64,000 nt of DNA from Corythucha ciliata (lineage: Eukaryota; Arthropoda; Insecta; Hemiptera; Tingidae): assembly GCA_038030265.1 (NCBI GenBank), contig CM075941.1, positions 39,370,164 to 39,434,163 on the forward strand, given 5' to 3'. The notes beneath the pieces are model-generated. The model was given only the letters and a program-made list of their open reading frames with translations. It ran no database searches and was not told the DNA's origin. A program made the position numbers and the translations under genes. Below, in pieces: positions 6,251 through 60,633 of this stretch (positions are counted from its first letter, which is position 1; each line of letters begins with the position of its first letter).

Positions 6251-6496
6251 TCCCTAGAAAAGAAGAAAACAAAATGTTGCTTGCTAATTTCTGTCGGTGT
6301 AGTTATTTCTCCGTCAAAAGCCGTATTTTTGCTGATGCATTTTTTTCTCCCTAACTAGTGGCCTTTGTGATGCGATGATCAGGGTAGGGCGAATTTCCCC
6401 TTTTTACTTTCATTATTTGTGTTTTGCTCTTCCTGTCTTTCGATTTCATTCAGTGTACGTACGTAAATTTAATTCCCAGTGTACATTCTTGTTTCG

Positions 6497-8090
6497 ATGG
6501 CTTCGAAAAGAAAGTCGTGCTCGGTTGCCGAGAAACTTCGCGCACTCGAAAGGCTGGACAGAGGTGAAAGTGTGGTTAATGTGGCGAAAGATTTAGGGGT
6601 CGGTGTTACCACTGTTAAAGATTGGAGGAAAAGTCGGGAACAGTTGGTGGCTTTCAGTGCATCCGCGGACGGCAATTTACGGGACCGTAAAAGGCTTCGA
6701 AAACCTCCCTCAGAGATTCTCGACGACGCGGTTTGGATTTGGTTTTGTCAGGAACGTGAAAAAGGTACGCCAATTTCTGGCCCCCTGATAAAAGGTAAAG
6801 CAAGGTCTTTCCATGCTGCGCTTGGTATTGAGGGTGATTTTAGCGCGAGTGAAGGCTGGCTTCATCGGTGGAAGAAGAGGCACGGGGTCCAACAGTTCTC
6901 CATTTGTGGGGAAAGGTTATCTGCCGATGAAGAGTCATCAAAGAAATTTATTGGTGTTCTGGAAGAGTTGCTCTCCACGGACAATTTATCAATGGACCAA
7001 ATTTACAACATGGACGAGACGGGCTTAAACTTCAAGATGTTGCCTAAAAAAACACTGGCTACAAAAAATGACAACAAAATTACAGGCTATAAAATGGCGA
7101 AAGAAAGGATTACGGTGGGGCTGTGTAGCAACGCATCCGGAACCCATAAATTACCCCTTTTCGTTGTTGGAAAATCTCGCAAACCACGCGCTTTTAAAAA
7201 CCTCAACTTGTCGTCTTTGCCAGTGTACTACCGGGCTCAGAATCAGCATGGATGGATCGCGAATTATTTCAAGACTGGTTTTACAATTTTTTTGTTCCGG
7301 AGGTTGGCAAGCATTTAAAAGAAAGAAATCTCGTCGCTAAAGCTGTTCTCGTGTTAGACAATGCTCCGTCACACCCTCTTGACATAGAAAAAGACGGTAT
7401 TCGTTGTGTGTTTTTGCCTCCTAATGTAACGTCGCTGATTCAGCCCATGGATCAGGGAGTAATCGAGAGTGTCAAGAGGCGATACCGCCTGAAATTAATG
7501 GGGACTCTCATTGAGAAAACGGCCACTGGTCACAGTCTTATGGATGCAGTTAAAAGCATAAACATAAAAGACGTCATCTACATGATAGCCGCTGCTTGGG
7601 ACGATCTACCAGCATCAACCATCACAAAATCTTGGCGTAAATTGATCCCTTCCGATGACAAAAATGATGAGACACCTGAAGAGCGGAATATTCTCGTGGA
7701 TTTCATGCGTGATTGGAACCAACTTCGTCGGATCACCCCTTTCGAAGCTCCAGATGAGCAGGACGTGTCGCAATGGTTGGATTCTGACGAGCCTCCCTTC
7801 TGCCTACAGATGAGGAAATCGTCAAACAAGTAACCGACGGTACCGATGGTAATGCAGAGGAGGACTTCAACCAAGAAGATGAAGAATCATCTCTAAATGA
7901 TAGCGAATAAAAAATACTTCACACTGATGCAGTGGAAGCGTTAGGTGTCGTGCTCAACTACATCGAACAGCAACCAACATCACAACCAGCAGACATAATG
8001 TTAGTTCAGAAATGGAGGGATTACGCCACATCAAAGAGGCAGTCGGCGCAACGGCAAAATAAAATTACCAACTATTTTGAACACAATTAA
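6497..8090 (+). pseudogene. Tigger/pogo (CENP-B/DDE_1) transposase, frameshifted
   Basis: This would be a cut-and-paste transposase acting on the element ends. An N-terminal psq/CENP-B helix-turn-helix (MASKRKSCSVAEKLRALERL, then VNVAKDLGVGVTTVKDW) is followed by a CENP-B-type second HTH (EGWLHRWKKRHGV) and a DDE_1 core. The catalytic triad is visible: YNMDETG (about 7000), VLDNAPSH (about 7355) and IQPMDQG (about 7440). The ATG at 6497 is preferred over 6479 because it begins the canonical MASKRK start. One frame break lies near 7240-7247 between the first and second catalytic residues and a second near 7800. After it an acidic tail and the usual C-terminal segment (about 7920-8090, ending in NYFEHN) continue in other frames. 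The triad residues are all present, so inactivation is by indels. Confidence 0.88.
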
Positions 8091-17359: not shown

Positions 17360-17902
17360 TCAAGCCCATATAAAAAGGCGTGCAGAGCTCGTCTCGAAGC
17401 ATCATTTTGACAGTTTTTGGCAGTTTTCACAGTTTTCTTAACGCCAGTGTCATTTTGTGAGTTTAGTTCACTCAAAAGGGCAGGGAGTGATTCACGGGGT
17501 GAATTGTCGCGTTTGTGCGTTTTTTTTTTGTACGTTGTGCGTCTTCTTTTTCGTTTTTTTTGCTTCTAAATTCTTTCGCTCGTCGCCGTGTACGAGTTTT
17601 CAACGGTGTGCCCGTTCGAGTTACAATACACTCGCACACACCACTCACAAGTTGTCTCCGACGTTGCCGCCACTCACCGTAGTTGGACCCGGCACGCATT
17701 AAAGACACATTTCGTCGTTCGTTGTTGCCGCCACTCACCGTAGTCGGACCCGGCACGCACAAGACGTCACTCGCCGTTCGTTTTCGCCGCCACTCACCGT
17801 AGTCGGACCCGGCGGACTCTGTTCATCGAAGTGGACACACGGACACGCACACGTACACGCACAAACACAACGCGCGACTACACCCAGAAACGCAGAAGCG
17901 GA
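17360..17902 (+). promoter_or_regulatory. TATA-box promoter and GC-rich transcribed leader
   Basis: TATAAAAA (17369-17376) is followed about 25-30 bp downstream by a TCGAAGCATCATT start-like region, then a GC-rich stretch with tandem repeats. The leader appears to continue after the Transib insertion (21218-21515) up to AACGGGTGAGTG, a good splice-donor context near 21514. It may be the 5' leader of a retroelement or of a host gene split by the transposon; no downstream exon was identified. Confidence 0.35.
17660..17820 (+). repeat. Three tandem units of about 60 bp
   Basis: GCCGCCACTCACCGTAGT starts at 17666, 17727 and 17786, each followed by GGACCCGGC. The second and third units are most alike. 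It lies in the leader interrupted by the Transib element. Confidence 0.8.
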
Positions 17903-17907
17903 CATCG

Positions 17908-17935
17908 CACAGTGGGGCAAAGGTGGAAAAAACTA
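17908..17935 (+). repeat. Transib 5' end: heptamer, 12-nt spacer, A-rich nonamer
   Basis: CACAGTG (17908-17914), then a 12-nt spacer (17915-17926), then AAAAAACTA (17927-17935). CACAGTG equals the consensus heptamer of V(D)J recombination signals. Confidence 0.75.
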
Positions 17936-18806
17936 TATTTTTGAAAGTGAGAATTTCGTTCGTTCAAAATTCGTTTCCCATAGTATATGGCATGCAGAAT
18001 CAAGATATGATATTCGTTTTTCAATTAAATGGTAAAATGATGAGTCAATTGGGCTTCAAAGTTGAAAGTCGACAAAATGAACAAAATAGGATTGATTCAA
18101 ATTATTTTCCGCAGGTTTCCGTTTTTGTTGAAATGGAATTAATTGGTTGTTAATGTGACCGTACGCCTCTTAAGAGTAACATGAGTGCATCAATCAAGTG
18201 AAACAGGCGGGTGAAACTCATGTCCTAAGGCCAAGAACTATTAGGTGATTATGTCCTCTAGTAGTTCACATACGAAAAAAGCTCCGCCTTCCTCCGGCAT
18301 GAATGCTAAATTGTTGTTATCTAGATGCATTTGAGGTTGTGCTGTACAATTTTCATCTGCATCCAGCTACAACTCTGGTATCTACAACCACTTTCATGCA
18401 AGAATAGCCAAATGTGTGTTTTTTGTTGTTTTTCGTTTTAATAATGAAACGTTAACTATGTACCTTAGAGGTTAACTATCGTAAATGCATTTTCATAAAT
18501 TTTAAAATTTGAAATTAAAAAATTTAAATTAATACCTAAAATTTCGTCTAACTTTCCATGATTAGGCAAACTGTGTGTGTAAAAGTATGATGATTGATTG
18601 GCAATAAAATAATCTACTGATGGAGGCAAAAAGAAGAGAAGAGAGAAATACTTTCTATAGAGAATAAAGTCCAAATCAGATTCTATAAATATTTATCAAA
18701 TTTAAAATATTTCATTTTATAAGAATACTTTGATCAGTGCCAGAAATATTTCCCTTTGTTTTTCCATTCGGGATACGTACTTGCTGTGAAACGTCTGAAA
18801 ATTACA

Positions 18807-20688
18807 ATGGAAACAGCTAATATTCGATACCGGGACTTGTGTGGAGGACCATTGAAGAGTACATTTCCAGTATTTTCCCTGATTTGTCCGAGGAAAAAAC
18901 GAAGATACTTTGCGAACAACTGCGCAAACGTTTTATTGCCCACTTTAACCAAAAGTTTAATGCCGTTAATCGCAATAAAGTTAAGTTCTTAAAGAAACAT
19001 GAGACTTGGATGGAAGGTAACTTCTCGAAAACAAAAATCAATAAGAATCAATTTTAAAATATAAAACCAAATTAATAATTAGGTGAGTTCTCCGCTTATT
19101 TTGGTAACACCAACAACGATAGTTCATTCCACCGAGGGGGACGACCAGAAAAAAGTTTTGAAGTCTGTGGAAAAAGAAGTCAAAAAAATAAAATTCGCGA
19201 GCTACGATCGTTGCACTCACAGGGTTTGATTAATGCTGCATCAACGTCAGAACCTCAGTTCACCCGTTTTAGTAAAGATTTCGCGTTGTCACTTTTCACT
19301 CAAGCCAAATTGACCAAGTACCAATACGAGGTAATCAGGAAGGCAACGAAAAGTATTGGATGCGACATTTTTCCTAGCTACAAGAAAATCACCGAATCTA
19401 AAAAAGAGTGCTACCCTGAAAATCTACAGATCAGCGAGACTTCGGCTCAGGTTCCCCTGCAAGACCTTCTAAACCACACAGCCAAACCGGATCCTGATGA
19501 CAAAAAGCACCTCAGGGCTCAAAAACTGGAAAGGACAGACATTGCAGCTTATTTCGAAGTGGGGGTTCGACGGAACCTCTGGGCAGAGTGAATTCTCCCG
19601 GAGGTATTCGACTGAAGCAACGAGTTTCGACTCCCACTTATTCATGACTTCCATGGTCCCTTTAAGAATAACTTCAAGCGATCCTCATAACGAAATAATA
19701 TGGGAAAATCCCCGTCCTTCATCCACGCGATATTGCAGACCAATACGTTTTCGATACGAAAAAGAGACTCTTGAATTGGCTCGTGAGGAGAAAGCATGTG
19801 TCGAAGCTGAATACAACGATTTGCGATCGACAGAAGTAGATTTCAGCGGCATAAAAATCTCGGTTCAACACCTCTTAATATTTTCAATGTTGGATGGGAA
19901 GGTAGCACAAGCTGTAACTGAGACTTCGTCATCTAGCAATTGCTTCATTTGTGACAGTCGTCCGTCAGAAATGAACGACCTAGCCAAAGTTCGACGGAAG
20001 CCAACGGATGAAGAAGCACTTAAATTAGGAATATCACCTCTTCACGCCCGAATAAAAACCATGGAATATATTTTGCATCTAGCTTACAATTTGAGTTTCG
20101 AAAAATGGCGATCGACAAAGACGACTAATGCAATGAAAGAGGCCGAGAAAAAACGCATCCAGGATGAATTCTTGGACGAATTGGGGATTCGAGTGGATTT
20201 TGTGAAACAAGGATACGGATCATCTAATACCGGAAATACTGCCCGGAGGTTTTTCGCCAACCCAGATTTAACTTCAGAAGTCACAAAAAATCGATAAACA
20301 CTTGATTGAGCGACTAGGTACCATCTTAAATGTGACCAACAGCAACCATGACATTGATGCCGTTAAATTTGGGGTCCACGCGAAAGAAACCGCTGAGATA
20401 GCCATTCAACTTTACCCATGGTACTACATGCCCTCAACAGTTCACAAATTGCTGGTTCACGGCTCAGAAATTATTACAGCTGCAGCTCTTCCCGTGGGAA
20501 TGCTATCTGAAGAAGCGCAAGAAAGTCGCAACAAAGACTACAAAATCTTCAGATTGAATCACGCGAGGAAGCACTCTCGCACAGTTACAAACGAGGACAT
20601 TTTTCATAAGATTCTGGAGACCTCAGACCCACCCACTTATTACGAGTTTGAGGCCGGAACTCAAAAAGAAGCACTTGCCAGTGAGTGA
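18807..20688 (+). pseudogene. RAG1-like (Transib) transposase, frameshifted
   Basis: A DDE transposase related to the RAG1 catalytic core. Visible landmarks, in order: KWGFDGTSG with the first Asp at 19569-19571 (RAG1 has CDGMGD), IFSMLDGKV with the second Asp at 19893-19895, and the zinc Cys pair in CFICDS about 25 residues later. GNTARRFF (RAG1 GNFARKL) follows, then the zinc His pair HKLLVH (20443 and 20458, same spacing as RAG1 HKTLAH) and EEAQESRNKDYKIFR with the catalytic Glu at 20521-20523 (RAG1 GNESGNKLFRRF). The start is the ATG at 18807. Frame breaks lie near 18845, about 19540-19560 and in the A-run near 20286-20291; the interval 19057-19080 needs an intron or another repair. All catalytic and zinc residues survive. 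No RAG2-like frame is seen. Confidence 0.85.
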
Positions 20689-21174
20689 GGACATACGGGA
20701 GTTGTTGCTTTGAAAAAGGTTTTTTTATTTTATTGTGTTTCACTACCCAAATTCCATTTCATTTTGTGCATAATTTTTGCAATAAGAAGCTGAATTTCAT
20801 TTCTTTGGTTTTAAGTTATTTTTTTATTAGTGAGAAGTTTTTTCTATTATTTCTGTAGCAAGAAGTTTTAAAGCGTTTTTAGAAAGCATACATATAACGT
20901 GGGGGTATCACCAATCTTTCTTTTAATTTCGTATTTTTCTATTATTATTGAGTTTAGAGTTTTCGTGAATACGCGTATTCGCTCATGGCTCATTTCACGC
21001 TATAGATCGTAAGAAATATGTTTGAAAATTTTTTAAACCAAATTTTTTTAACACATAATTATAGACAAATCAATGATCATGTGCGGCAAAGACTGTTATC
21101 CAACGTTAAATTTCACGCTGAACAAAAAACTTCCTATCAACAAGTGGCCTCAAACGCTTCGTTTCCGACTTATT

Positions 21175-21212
21175 TAGTTTTTTCCCATTTTTGCAACAAT
21201 TGCCCCACTGTG
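21175..21212 (-). repeat. Transib 3' end: heptamer, 22-nt spacer, same nonamer
   Basis: Read inward on the minus strand: CACAGTG (21212-21206), a 22-nt spacer (21205-21184), then AAAAAACTA (21183-21175). The nonamer-like block is identical to that of the left end. The spacers share only their outer six bases (GGGCAA). Confidence 0.75.
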
Positions 21213-21299
21213 CATCGTGAGTCAGTCCACTCCCTGCGCCTGCCGTCTTCAAGACCCCGTCTCCACCTCCTCTGCGGAAGCGAACCAGCTCGTCGGCTA

Positions 21300-21430
21300 A
21301 CGCCGCCGACCACTCACCACTTACACGCACACACACACCCCCACATACACACCCACCCACACACCCACCACTCACACATACCCCCCCTCACACCTTACTA
21401 CCCCACACCTACCCCCCCCCCCCCCCGACA
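21300..21430 (+). repeat. CA-rich and poly-C low-complexity tract
   Basis: CACACA/CCCACC microsatellite ending in a 16-17 C run. The His/Thr-rich open frame across it is a product of the repeat. Confidence 0.8.
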
Positions 21431-35076: not shown

Positions 35077-36520
35077 ATGAAGCCAGTGGTGAAAGCGGTA
35101 GCTGCAGTGGCTGCAGCAGTTTCTACTCTTCACACAATAAAGACTGTCCAGAATAAAAGAAAAAGGTGGAGAAATAGACGGTAAGATCAGCTTTTTCATA
35201 AAATTCTTAATTCAATTTCATGGAACAGATCTAACTGTTTTATTCCAACAGCTGGTGGACAAGAGAATGGATACGGAGACGAGAACTCAATTCTCGCGAC
35301 GTTTTCAGCCTCCTAACTCGGGAGCTCCAGTTTGAGGATCAAGAATCCTTTAAGAAGTTCTTGAGGATGAACGAAACCTCATTCCATAAGCTGTTGGACC
35401 TGGTCAAGGACAGTATTCGTCGAGAGAATACGGTGATGAGGGAAAGTATCTCTCCTCAATTGAGGTACTGGTCAAAGCTAACAGTTTCATTTCCTTGCGA
35501 ATGGGCCAAAGAGTACGAACATCTATCCAATTTTTCAGGCTGGCCGTTACTTTACGATTTCTAGCTTCGGGCGACAGCTACAGAAGCTTATCTTTCAGTT
35601 TCCGCATCCCACCGAGCACTTTATCAGGGATTATCCCGGATACGTGCCAAGCACTGTGTAACGCCCTCCTTCCGGAATACTTGAAGGTACGTGTAGGTGC
35701 CACATTTTGCTTTTATACAAAATGTACCACAACATAGTACTTTCAGATGCCCGACACGGAAGTTGAGTGGCTGAAAATATCGGAGGCTTTCAATAAACTT
35801 TGGAACTACCCGAACTGCGTTGGAGCGTTGGACGGCAAACACGTCCAATTTCAACCTCCCAAAAGTATGGGTTCCCATTTTTTTAATTATAAAGGGTTCC
35901 ACAGCATCGTTCTACTGGCCGTGGTTGATGCAAACCTCAAATTCGTGTACGTGGACGTGGGCTGTAATGGCAGGATCAGCGATGGAGGTGTATACAAAAA
36001 TAGCCGCCTCCAAGAGCTCGTCGGAACGAACTCGGTGAACCTGCCCCCAAGCCGTCCTTTACCCGGCGGTCACATCAACGTCCCGTTCCATCTTGTGGCG
36101 GACGACGCGTTCCCTCTGACCTCGAGGACTATGAAACCTTTTAAAGGACGTGCTTTGGAGAGAGCAGAAAAAATTTTCAACTACAGGCTCAGCAGAGCCA
36201 GAAGGACCGTCGAAAATGCTTTCGGCGTCCTATCAAATAGGTTTCGTCTTCTCCAAAAAAAAATTGAACTTAGTGCCGAGAAGACTGAACTGGTGGTGAT
36301 GACAGCGTGTGCTCTGCACAACTTTTTAGCCGTCGAGGATCCTGTTTCCTATTTCGGCGCGTCGGAAAGCCAAGAAAACCTGATGACAGGAGTTGAAGCT
36401 GAACGACAAACAAGACCTAAAGATGATGCCAAAGGAATAAGAGAATGTTTAAAATATTATTTCAATAATGATGGTGCCGTGCCCTGGCAAGATCAAGCTA
36501 TCGAAAGATTTAATTTTTAA
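35077..36520 (+). CDS. Harbinger (HARBI1-like) DDE transposase, 4 exons
   Basis: Exons 35077-35180, 35252-35464, 35539-35686 and 35747-36520 join through GT-AG introns to a 412-residue open frame, the usual HARBI1 size. The N-terminus is basic (NKRKRWRNRR). Exon 2 carries FKKFLRMNETSFHKLLDLV, the typical 'FRMxxxxFxxLL' segment, and exon 3 LAVTLRFLASGDSYRSL, the HTH region. Exon 4 is the DDE_Tnp_4 core with CVGALDGKHV (first Asp, about 35832), VDVGCNGRISDGGVY (second Asp, about 35970) and RARRTVENAFGVL (Glu, about 36214). It cuts and pastes the element, normally with help from the MADF partner. No stop or frame break is seen. The start ATG is chosen because it opens exon 1 in frame after a stop-free run. 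Confidence 0.88.
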
Positions 36521-57789: not shown

Positions 57790-57959
57790 CCCCAATACCC
57801 CCCTCCTCTCGTCACCTGGTAGCCAAGAATTTATCTCTCACCTTTCTCTTTTCCCCCTTTCCTCCAAAAGTGACCCGGCTTTCCCTGGTGTTTACCAAGG
57901 AAAGTAAATTTTAGGAAATTTTCGAATTTCAGTTTTCCGTGGTCACTTTTCCTTGTCTT

Positions 57960-58820
57960 ATGTCCCCTCTACTCCAGCCACCTCCCCCTCGATATATTCC
58001 GCATCACCTTCCGCCTCCTCCCCTTAAAGGTGAAACTGGGCCATTTCGTCCCGAACGTTGCACCACCGTACCGTTAGTAAAAATTAAAAAGCGGTATTAC
58101 GCCGGCACTCACGGGGTGTTCGGTACCGGTCCCCCCCTGAAACGGGATATAGTATTTGGACCTCAGAGCGCCTCTGGATTTCTCCCCCTCAGGGCCTTGT
58201 ATTTTACTCCCCCGGAACATTTGGTTCCCGATAATATACACCCAAACGACCCCAACGTTATTTTTATAGGTCAGGACCCCATCACTTCCCCGCCCGGAAC
58301 CGAGGAATTGGGATTTGTCGGATCCGATCTTCGGTATTTCCGAAATAAACCTCCTTTCCCAAAAAGGTGTTTCGAAATCCACCTCGCGGGAGGAGGAATA
58401 ATTGTCCGTGGAGACGGATTCCCCCCTTACTGCACCCCCCATGTCTTTCTACCGCCCCCGGGACAGAAACTCTCAAATCGTCCCTTAAAGTGCAGGAATT
58501 GTGACGCCATTACCCGTTGTGGTGTCTGTGGGTGTCCTCAAACAAATTTACGTCGGTTAAAAAAGGGGGAACCAAGCTTGTTCCCTCCGTTGCTCTTTTC
58601 AGAGCCTCCCCCTCTAAAATTTACCCGGAAAGAACGCGCCATTCTACCCCCTAACGACCCCCGTCGATTGTTTTACCCCCGAGAGTTGTCTCAGACCAGT
58701 TCCGACGCGTCTGATTTGAGCCAACTCTCAATCCTCCTCGAACCCTACGTCTTAACCCCGCCCGACTACGACAATCTATCTCCCCCGACGCCTCCGCCGT
58801 CGACATCCCGGAAGACGTAG
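57960..58820 (+). CDS. Proline-rich Cys-motif protein, copy 1 (3' frameshift)
   Basis: 286 codons from the ATG at 57960; the upstream in-frame GTG at 57939 is less likely. The sequence is Pro-rich (LLQPPPPRYIPHHLPPPPLK). A middle region reads LYFTPPEHLVPDNIHPNDPN and LGFVGSDLRYF. A CRNC-x5-CGVCGC motif (Cys at residues 178, 181, 187, 190, 192) is followed by PQTNLRRLKK and a Ser/Pro-rich acidic tail. The last residues are frame-shifted against copy 2 by one C fewer at about 58789. The Cys cluster could bind zinc and nucleic acid. I recognise no family; the divergent copy at 8.8 kb shows it is repeated. Confidence 0.55.
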   Translation: MSPLLQPPPPRYIPHHLPPPPLKGETGPFRPERCTTVPLVKIKKRYYAGTHGVFGTGPPLKRDIVFGPQSASGFLPLRALYFTPPEHLVPDNIHPNDPNVIFIGQDPITSPPGTEELGFVGSDLRYFRNKPPFPKRCFEIHLAGGGIIVRGDGFPPYCTPHVFLPPPGQKLSNRPLKCRNCDAITRCGVCGCPQTNLRRLKKGEPSLFPPLLFSEPPPLKFTRKERAILPPNDPRRLFYPRELSQTSSDASDLSQLSILLEPYVLTPPDYDNLSPPTPPPSTSRKT

Positions 58821-58825
58821 ATATG

Positions 58826-60615
58826 CTTCTGGCGGGCTCAATTTTCAAAACTACATCCTCGCGCCCTCTATCGTCTTTACCCTTCACCTCAATATTTCCT
58901 CATTTGAAACCTACTTCAAAACTTTTAGCTCCCATTTTCTTAACGACCTCTATCTTGCAACATTTCACACAACTCTTATATTTCTCTCCCTTGAGTTCTC
59001 GTTTCAGTTTCCGAATTTTCCCTTTAATAGAACCAAATCTTTTGTTTCCTAATATCAGTTTATAATAATCTTAACACTAACCCCAGTACCAATTTTAAAC
59101 TACTACTTCAACTTTCTCTATTCCCCTTCTCTATCGCTTGTGTACTTTCTTATTTGATTACACCCCCTTTCTTGCCTTCACTAGATATGAACTCGTTGTC
59201 AATTTAGCGTCTTGTCTCGTTCAAGTGTGATCAATTTGTTAAATCGTTTTAAAGTCTTTATTTCACCCAGTGTGTCTTGTCTTACTTCCTACCCCCCATC
59301 CTTACACTTTGTTTGGCCTCGCCAGCAAAGGGTCTATTCCTCTTCTCTACTGGCCTCGCCATAGAGAAGATTCCTCCCGTTTCGTCAGGTTTTTATTTTT
59401 TTTTTAGGCTCCTTTTCCTCCCAAATACCCCGCATCCTTGACTCTGGTCGGCCTCGTCCCCAGAGGGTCTATTTTTCTTTTCGGCCTCGTCGAAAAGAAA
59501 ATTCTCTTCTCTTCTTAACGTGTGGCCTCGTCCTCGTTAAGATCTTTCCCCTTGACCAAGGCCTCGTCTTGGTCAAGCCCCAATACCCCCCTCCTCTCGT
59601 CACCTGGTAGCCAAGAATTTATCTCTCACCTTTCTCTTTTCCCCCTTTCCTCAAAAAGTGACCCGGCTTTCCCTGGTGTTTACCAAGGAAAGTAAATTTT
59701 AGGAAATTTTCGAATTTCAGTTTTCCGTGGTCACTTTTCCTTGTCTTATGTCCCCTCTACTCCAGCCACCTCCCCCTCGATATATTCCGCATCACCTTCC
59801 GCCTCCTCCCCTTAAAGGTGAAACTGGGCCATTTCGTCCCGAACGTTGCACCACCGTACCGTTAGTAAAAATTAAAAAAGCGGTATTACGCCGGCACTCA
59901 CGGGGTGTTCGGTACCGGTCCCCCCCTGAAACGGGATATAGTATTTGGACCTCAGAGCGCCTCTGGATTTCTCCCCCTCAGGGCCTTGTATTTTACTCCC
60001 CCGGAACATTTGGTTCCCGATAATATACACCCAAACGACCCCAACGTTATTTTTATAGGTCAGGACCCCATCACTTCCCCGCCCGGAACCGAGGAATTGG
60101 GATTTGTCGGATCCGATCTTCGGTATTTCCGAAATAAACCTCCTTTCCCAAAAAGGTGTTTCGAAATCCACCTCGCGGGAGGAGGAATAATTGTCCGTGG
60201 AGACGGATTCCCCCCTTACTGCACCCCCCATGTCTTTCTACCGCCCCCGGGACAGAAACTCTCAAATCGTCCCTTAAAGTGCAGGAATTGTGACGCCATT
60301 AACCGTTGTGGTGTCTGTGGGTGTCCTCAAACAAATTTACGTCGGTTAAAAAAGGGGGAACCAAGCTTGTTCCCTCCGTTGCTCTTTTCAGAGCCTCCCC
60401 CTCTAAAATTTACCCGGAAAGAACGCGCCATTCTACCCCCTAACGACCCCCGTCGATTGTTTTACCCCCGAGAGTTGTCTCAGACCAGTTCCGACGCGTC
60501 TGATTTGAGCCAACTCTCAATCCTCCTCGAACCCTACGTCTTAACCCCGCCCGACTACGACAATCTATCTCCCCCCGACGCCTCCGCCGTCGACATCCCG
60601 GAAGACGTAGATATG
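58826..60615 (+). repeat. 1.79-kb tandem unit, copy 2
   Basis: Direct repeat of 57037-58825, offset 1,789 then 1,788. It continues beyond the duplication end into TCAGGGACTAA, the natural stop of the ORF, which copy 1 lacks because of the junction. Confidence 0.9.
59307..59577 (+). promoter_or_regulatory. Six-hairpin leader array, copy 2
   Basis: All six stems and loops are identical to those in copy 1 at an offset of 1,788. Confidence 0.75.
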
Positions 60616-60633
60616 CTTCTTCTCAGGGACTAA
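59748..60633 (+). pseudogene. Proline-rich Cys-motif protein, copy 2 (5' frameshift)
   Basis: Same protein as copy 1 with the natural C-terminus (AVDIPEDVDMLLLRD) but one extra A in the run near 59874-59879, which shifts the frame after residue 43. Without that base the frame would be about 294 codons. Each tandem copy therefore carries a different single-base break, and neither is fully open. Confidence 0.55.

Follow-up and report, generated by a model that had tools for sequence, protein, structure and literature searches.

Asymmetric RSS-like ends in a Transib transposon family of Corythucha ciliata

Transib transposons with unequal ends have been described before. Citing Kapitonov and Jurka 2005, PMC8355894 lists Transib5 of Drosophila melanogaster, together with Transib2, N1, N2 and N3 of Anopheles gambiae, as 12/23 asymmetric, and other Transibs as symmetric with spacers of 20 to 22 bp. 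All Subgroup I Transibs of another study have asymmetric ends and its Subgroup II contains both kinds; the same study describes a GRP-type nonamer-binding domain (NBD) in Transibs (PMC9435367). Most Transib families are called symmetric in PMC8289069. Some Transib ends carry RAG-type heptamers and nonamers with varying spacer lengths, and GGRPR is the nonamer contact (PMC6941560).

We analysed a Transib in a 64,000-nucleotide (nt) stretch of Corythucha ciliata DNA, hereafter the window. Like the window family, Transib5, Transib2 and TransibN1 to N3 have one short-spacer and one long-spacer end, of 12 or 23 ± 1 bp (PMC8355894). They differ by description from the two families presented here, which have 12/22 and 13/23 layouts (10-bp offset) and were checked over many copies. 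HzTransib of Helicoverpa zea, a 3518-bp element with a 5-bp target-site duplication (TSD) (PMC1852546), shares the transposase core with the window element. In contrast to the ends of the window element, those of HzTransib are described as symmetric and as bearing hardly any or no resemblance to the nonamer (PMC8289069). The 12/23 recombination signals (RSSs) of RAG1/RAG2 resemble the window ends in the heptamer CACAGTG, an A-rich inner block, unequal spacers and the GRP motif, but have an 11-bp offset, the nonamer ACAAAAACC (matched at 6/9 positions here), RAG2 and no routine transposition. RAGL transposons such as ProtoRAG and AanRAGL also have bipartite asymmetric ends and a 5-bp TSD (PMC8289069, PMC9435367), but their spacing is 27/31 in ProtoRAG (PMC8289069) and 4/13 in AanRAGL (PMC9435367), their blocks are different, and they carry a RAG2-like gene.

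The preliminary description of the window had pointed to a near-12/23 layout. The 12/22 spacers and a kept offset were confirmed, but the element is not the first of its kind: near-12/23 lopsided Transib ends and a Transib NBD are already published (PMC8355894, PMC9435367). A literature search, with most subscription papers outside it, returned no test of Transib spacing over many copies and families. In the present genome the lopsided layout is kept across many copies and is found in a second family as well.

The window element, its transposase and its ends

The element spans positions 17908 to 21212 of the window (3305 bp) and, as read from the sequence, is adjoined on both sides by the pentamer CATCG. 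It thus combines CAC ends with a 5-bp TSD, as Transibs do. In the following list, spacers are also based on copy comparison, and blocks on shuffle tests and copy comparison.

17903..17907, no strand: target-site duplication CATCG, 5' side, same as 21213-21217
17908..17914, + strand: 5' heptamer CACAGTG
17915..17926, + strand: 5' spacer, 12 nt, GGGCAAAGGTGG
17927..17935, + strand: 5' nonamer-like block AAAAAACTA
18807..19016, + strand: likely first coding exon of the transposase, its frame broken in the window copy; limits estimated by reading
19017..19082, + strand: likely intron, GT...AG, estimated likewise
19083..20713, + strand: main transposase exon with the GRP (NBD-like) motif and the catalytic core; frame changes near 19486, 20287 and 20630
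21175..21183, - strand: 3' nonamer-like block AAAAAACTA
21184..21205, - strand: 3' spacer, 22 nt, GGGCAATTGTTGCAAAAATGGG
21188..21192, - strand: A5 tract within the 3' spacer; it begins at spacer 13, close to position 12, according to the tract positions in the end
21206..21212, - strand: 3' heptamer CACAGTG
21213..21217, no strand: target-site duplication CATCG, 3' side

With its three changes of coding frame, the window copy is dead. It lies between a 59-bp tandem repeat (2.5 copies, 17663-17813) on one side and a CA-rich low-complexity stretch (21317-21418) on the other. Remains of other DNA transposons were found at 6473-7833 (DDE_1 with a Tc5-type DNA-binding domain, in two overlapping frames) and at 35738-36520 (DDE_Tnp_4). 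Open frames at 57915-58820 and 59869-60633 code for an almost identical protein stretch; the former gave no match in a Pfam scan.

The transposase pieces lie on the + strand, and a 274-aa piece matched HzTransib (6pqn) with an E-value of 6.5e-59, which bears out the earlier assignment of the element to Transib. At locus L009 the main exon is open for 542 codons, and exon 2 matched the same structure with an E-value of 2.4e-117. The + strand ORFs of at least 70 aa at this locus are one 81-aa end ORF and two transposase ORFs only. A search for related proteins returned 768 at E ≤ 0.001, indicating a Transib-type transposase. The motifs WGFDG, MLDGK and SEEAQESRNK were found in the window pieces. 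In the transposase alignment A1, D164 and E481 were invariant and D272 was nearly so; we take these to be the DDE residues, by alignment with HzTransib/RAG1.

In the N-terminal part, the G and R of the GRP motif were invariant and the P nearly so among 40 transposases; in a wider set of 63, G and R were nearly invariant and P was conserved in less than 90%. The motif aligns with GGRPR of the RAG1 NBD, in an alignment that is weak taken alone (i-Evalues 0.15 and 330). The Pfam RAG1 model scored 23.8 bits on P0001, under its 25-bit cut-off. A structure comparison was uninformative for the NBD-like part, because the RAG1 rows start at model residues 138-142, except for 6cik at 97.

Read inward, the 5' end is CACAGTG GGGCAAAGGTGG AAAAAACTA (17908-17935), and the 3' end, the reverse complement of 21175-21212, is CACAGTG GGGCAATTGTTGCAAAAATGGG AAAAAACTA. 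Both ends thus start with the exact RSS heptamer and carry the same block after spacers of 12 and 22 nt, as had been noticed before. The outer 13 bases are the same at both ends. Past them the longest common word is the 11-mer GGAAAAAACTA. A shared word of at least 11 nt occurred in 76 of 20000 dinucleotide-shuffled pairs of ends; among about 20000 window 42-mer pairs drawn at random, with pairs lying near each other skipped, there were 16 such cases. These tests rule out a chance origin of the exact shared word; the A5 tract at spacer 13 may be due to chance. The 11-mer matched at 11/11 positions when shifted by 10 and at only 6/11 without a shift (P 0.31, unremarkable), and a plain symmetric 12/12 layout was rejected on this basis. 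The two ends also align well without gaps (26 nt, 85%); the reason is that the 3' end bears the A5 tract at spacer 13 in addition to its block at spacer 22.

The RSS nonamer ACAAAAACC was not found at the window ends: its best score was 6/9, reached at spacers 10 and 11 (5') and at 11, 20 and 21 (3'). The designation 12/22 therefore depends on the chosen start of the block, and the 10-bp offset does not. Nor do the ends have the RSS spacers 12 and 23, since the values are 12/22 counted to AAAAAACTA and about 11/21 in RSS register, with an offset of 10 bp rather than 11. Judged by their letters, the window ends are RSS-like and are not an RSS.

Spacing across copies and in a second family

The 13-mer CACAGTGGGGCAA occurs at 42 exact places in the 400.9-Mb genome (2 for the reversed pattern), and the 28-nt 5' end, when at most 3 mismatches are allowed, at 17 places (control 0). 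Both ends were readable in 14 copies: family A, to which the window element belongs, accounts for 10, and a related subfamily, B, for the other 4, one of which is B/C-like. Among the 14, the 5' spacer was 12 in 12 and 13 in the other 2, with a bias toward 12 at L062, L064, L067 and L068, whose 5' ends came from the 28-nt query holding a 12-nt spacer. The 3' spacer was 22 in 9 copies, 21 in 2, 23 in 1 and 24 in 1 (taking the block with one mismatch); the block was lost in 1, the subfamily B copy L014. The heptamer was exact at both ends in 9/14. In 7 copies an exact TSD directly adjoins the element, in 4 it becomes exact once shifted by 1-2 nt, and in 3 there is none. TSDs differ between copies, showing that these are separate insertions. 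At the 5' ends of L027 and L067, matching the TSD requires two additional bases within or ahead of the heptamer (CACGCAGTG, CACAGAGTG). Variable or equal spacers, or a block that is not conserved, were named in the preliminary description as refuting its reading; the comparison of the 14 copies did not refute it.

Two loci, L012 (201-1868; 1.67 kb) and L039 (501-1650; 1.15 kb), are internally deleted with both lopsided ends present, as non-autonomous derivatives would be. Ends whose partner was not found were excluded from the 14 (5' ends of L015, L020, L026, L063, L065 and L066; 3' ends of L029 and L032); where readable, they had spacers of 12 or 13 (5') and about 22 (3').

Several other repeats were set aside. 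Family C (CACAGTGGGGCAATAGCGG..., spacer 25) comprises 11 loci (L016-L019, L023, L025, L030, L031, L036, L040 and L041; heptamer at 501 or 4513) with the same outer flank in all, indicating one Transib 3' end embedded in another repeat, roughly 2 kb long, and was dropped from the counts. Ends with CACAGTGGGGCAAAAGTACGC (L028, L042 and L043) and the one-off matches L021, L022, L024 and L033-L035 were dropped as lying outside the window family. Family D consists of four equally scoring matches, in each of which a 692-aa Transib frame is open (genome G000, C1:28136812, C3:5060195, C4:110225 and C5:24420816). No ends were found in 1.3 + 1.0 kb around the C4 copy, so this family may lie inside a larger repeat. 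Relatives were sought in viral contigs and genome contigs, and none was confirmed.

A search with the Helicoverpa protein P0014 returned at least 77 Transib matches in the genome. One group of them, 48-53% identical to P0014 over the best stretches, constitutes a second family, in which two complete copies were resolved, on C2 and C5; its block differs from that of the window family. The C5 copy has the TSD CGCCG and the ends CACAGTG-13-AAAAAGTCG (5') and CACAGTG-23-AAAAATTCG (3'). In the C2 copy the TSD is CCCCG, the spacers are 13 (5') and 22 (3', counted to the A tract), the 5' heptamer is one base short (CAAGTG) and the 3' heptamer is CACTGTG. Two more 3' ends had a spacer of 23; no end was found where the 5' ends of L078 and L080 and the 3' end of L081 had been guessed to lie.

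The core GG[AC]AAAAA lies at +10 (5') and +20 (3') in the window copy and the C5 copy alike, and at +10 and +19 in the C2 copy. Of the two complete copies in the second family, one thus has an offset of 10 and the other of 9, which supports the lopsided layout described for the window. When the C5 ends were shuffled 20000 times, 13 shuffles had the core at +10, 84 had it at +20 and none had it at both positions, a figure that is also compatible with ends that share an ancestor but are not under selection. A shared word of 9 nt was common when the second family was taken by itself (1408/20000 shuffles), so it is the agreement between the two families that carries the weight. The spacers of the window and C5 copies are alike at only 6/10 (5') and 8/20 (3') bases. 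Spacer length is kept while the sequence drifts, which, by analogy, is the behaviour of vertebrate RSSs. At the level of sequence, the comparison across copies and families is good evidence that the spacing is held.

Proposed mechanism and rival explanations

We consider it probable that this cut-and-paste Transib has ends that serve as bipartite transposase signals: the outer CACAGTG would be cut, and the A-rich block inside it (core GG[AC]AAAAA) lies one helical turn deeper at the 3' end than at the 5' end. If it works as RAG1 and HzTransib do, a transposase dimer would hold the heptamers in its catalytic cores and the A-rich blocks in its N-terminal GRP (AT-hook-like) domains, nick and hairpin the flanks, and insert the element elsewhere with a 5-bp duplication. 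If both N-terminal domains move together, a short and a long end would fit better than two equal ends, and unlike ends would be favoured, as under the 12/23 rule. The wandering of the 3' spacer (21-24) and the second A5 tract at spacer 13 count against this mechanism, as do the 3' block that is no better kept than the spacer between A and B, the common 9-nt words within the second family, the +19 position in the C2 copy, the looser GRP conservation in the wider transposase set, the weak NBD alignment and the description of most Transib families as symmetric (PMC8289069). Since the two families share the heptamer and the A-rich core at +10/+20 while their spacers vary freely, one may go further and read a 12/23-type pairing rule as a long-standing, functioning trait of the lineage, imposed through the GRP domain in transposons that have a single transposase gene. 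We put this forward tentatively, as a possibility that is on balance doubtful.

The asymmetry may instead be incidental, with a transposase that reads the outer ~13 bases and blocks that are remnants of symmetric inverted repeats, displaced by a one-turn indel fixed in an ancestor. The identity of the outer 13 bases and the ungapped 26-nt match would fit this, as would the argument that the terminal 15-17 bp are what RAGL transposases of invertebrates depend on (PMC7204232). Between family A and subfamily B, moreover, the 3' block was not better kept than the 3' spacer (2-7/9 versus 18-19/22 positions alike, with alignment gaps that blur the block), and L014 has no 3' block, which may be decay after insertion. 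Against such an accident stand the spacing that is almost fixed over separate insertions and a second family whose core sits at the same +10/+20 despite diverged spacer sequences, and we regard it as unlikely. HMGB bends RSSs, and the lopsided ends could likewise be bent by phased A tracts that require no sequence-read nonamer, the extra 3' tract, perhaps with a host HMG-box protein, replacing the role of HMGB at the 23-RSS. Tracts of at least five A begin at spacers 12 (5') and 13 and 22 (3') in family A, and at 2 and 13 (5') and 3, 14, 23 and 40 (3') in the second family, so that the ends of both families are also readable as phased tracts with one more at the 3' end. The shared words, however, exceed the A tract (GG before it, CTA in family A, CGG before it in the second family), and the 3' tract found at spacers 13-14 does not exceed A4 in subfamily B; bending as the whole explanation is improbable.

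The vertebrate 12/23 signals could also be homologous by descent, an asymmetric Transib of this sort being the ancestor or seed of the RSS. The heptamer is the RSS consensus, one end is shorter by one turn, and a seed of such a kind has been proposed from other Transibs (PMC8355894). Against this stand the offset of 10 rather than 11, the 6/9 match of the block to the nonamer, and the layouts of ProtoRAG (27/31, PMC8289069) and AanRAGL (4/13, PMC9435367). We hold descent to be very improbable. With RAG1-RAG2-type transposons that have such other layouts, the asymmetric Transib ends and the 12/23 rule may have arisen in parallel, and the suggestion in the preliminary description that the element bears on the origin of that rule is not supported as it was worded.

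The preferred reading remains that of bipartite signals at which the block would be bound by the GRP domain. An offset kept over many separate insertions and in two families, while the spacer sequence drifts, is the pattern expected for a recognised signal. The question at stake is whether the 12/23 rule was born with RAG2 in vertebrates or inherited from a transposon. If the pairing rule holds, short-plus-long pairing would be open to dissection in transposons without RAG2; if short and long ends do pair preferentially, a 12/23-type rule could be studied with one transposase.
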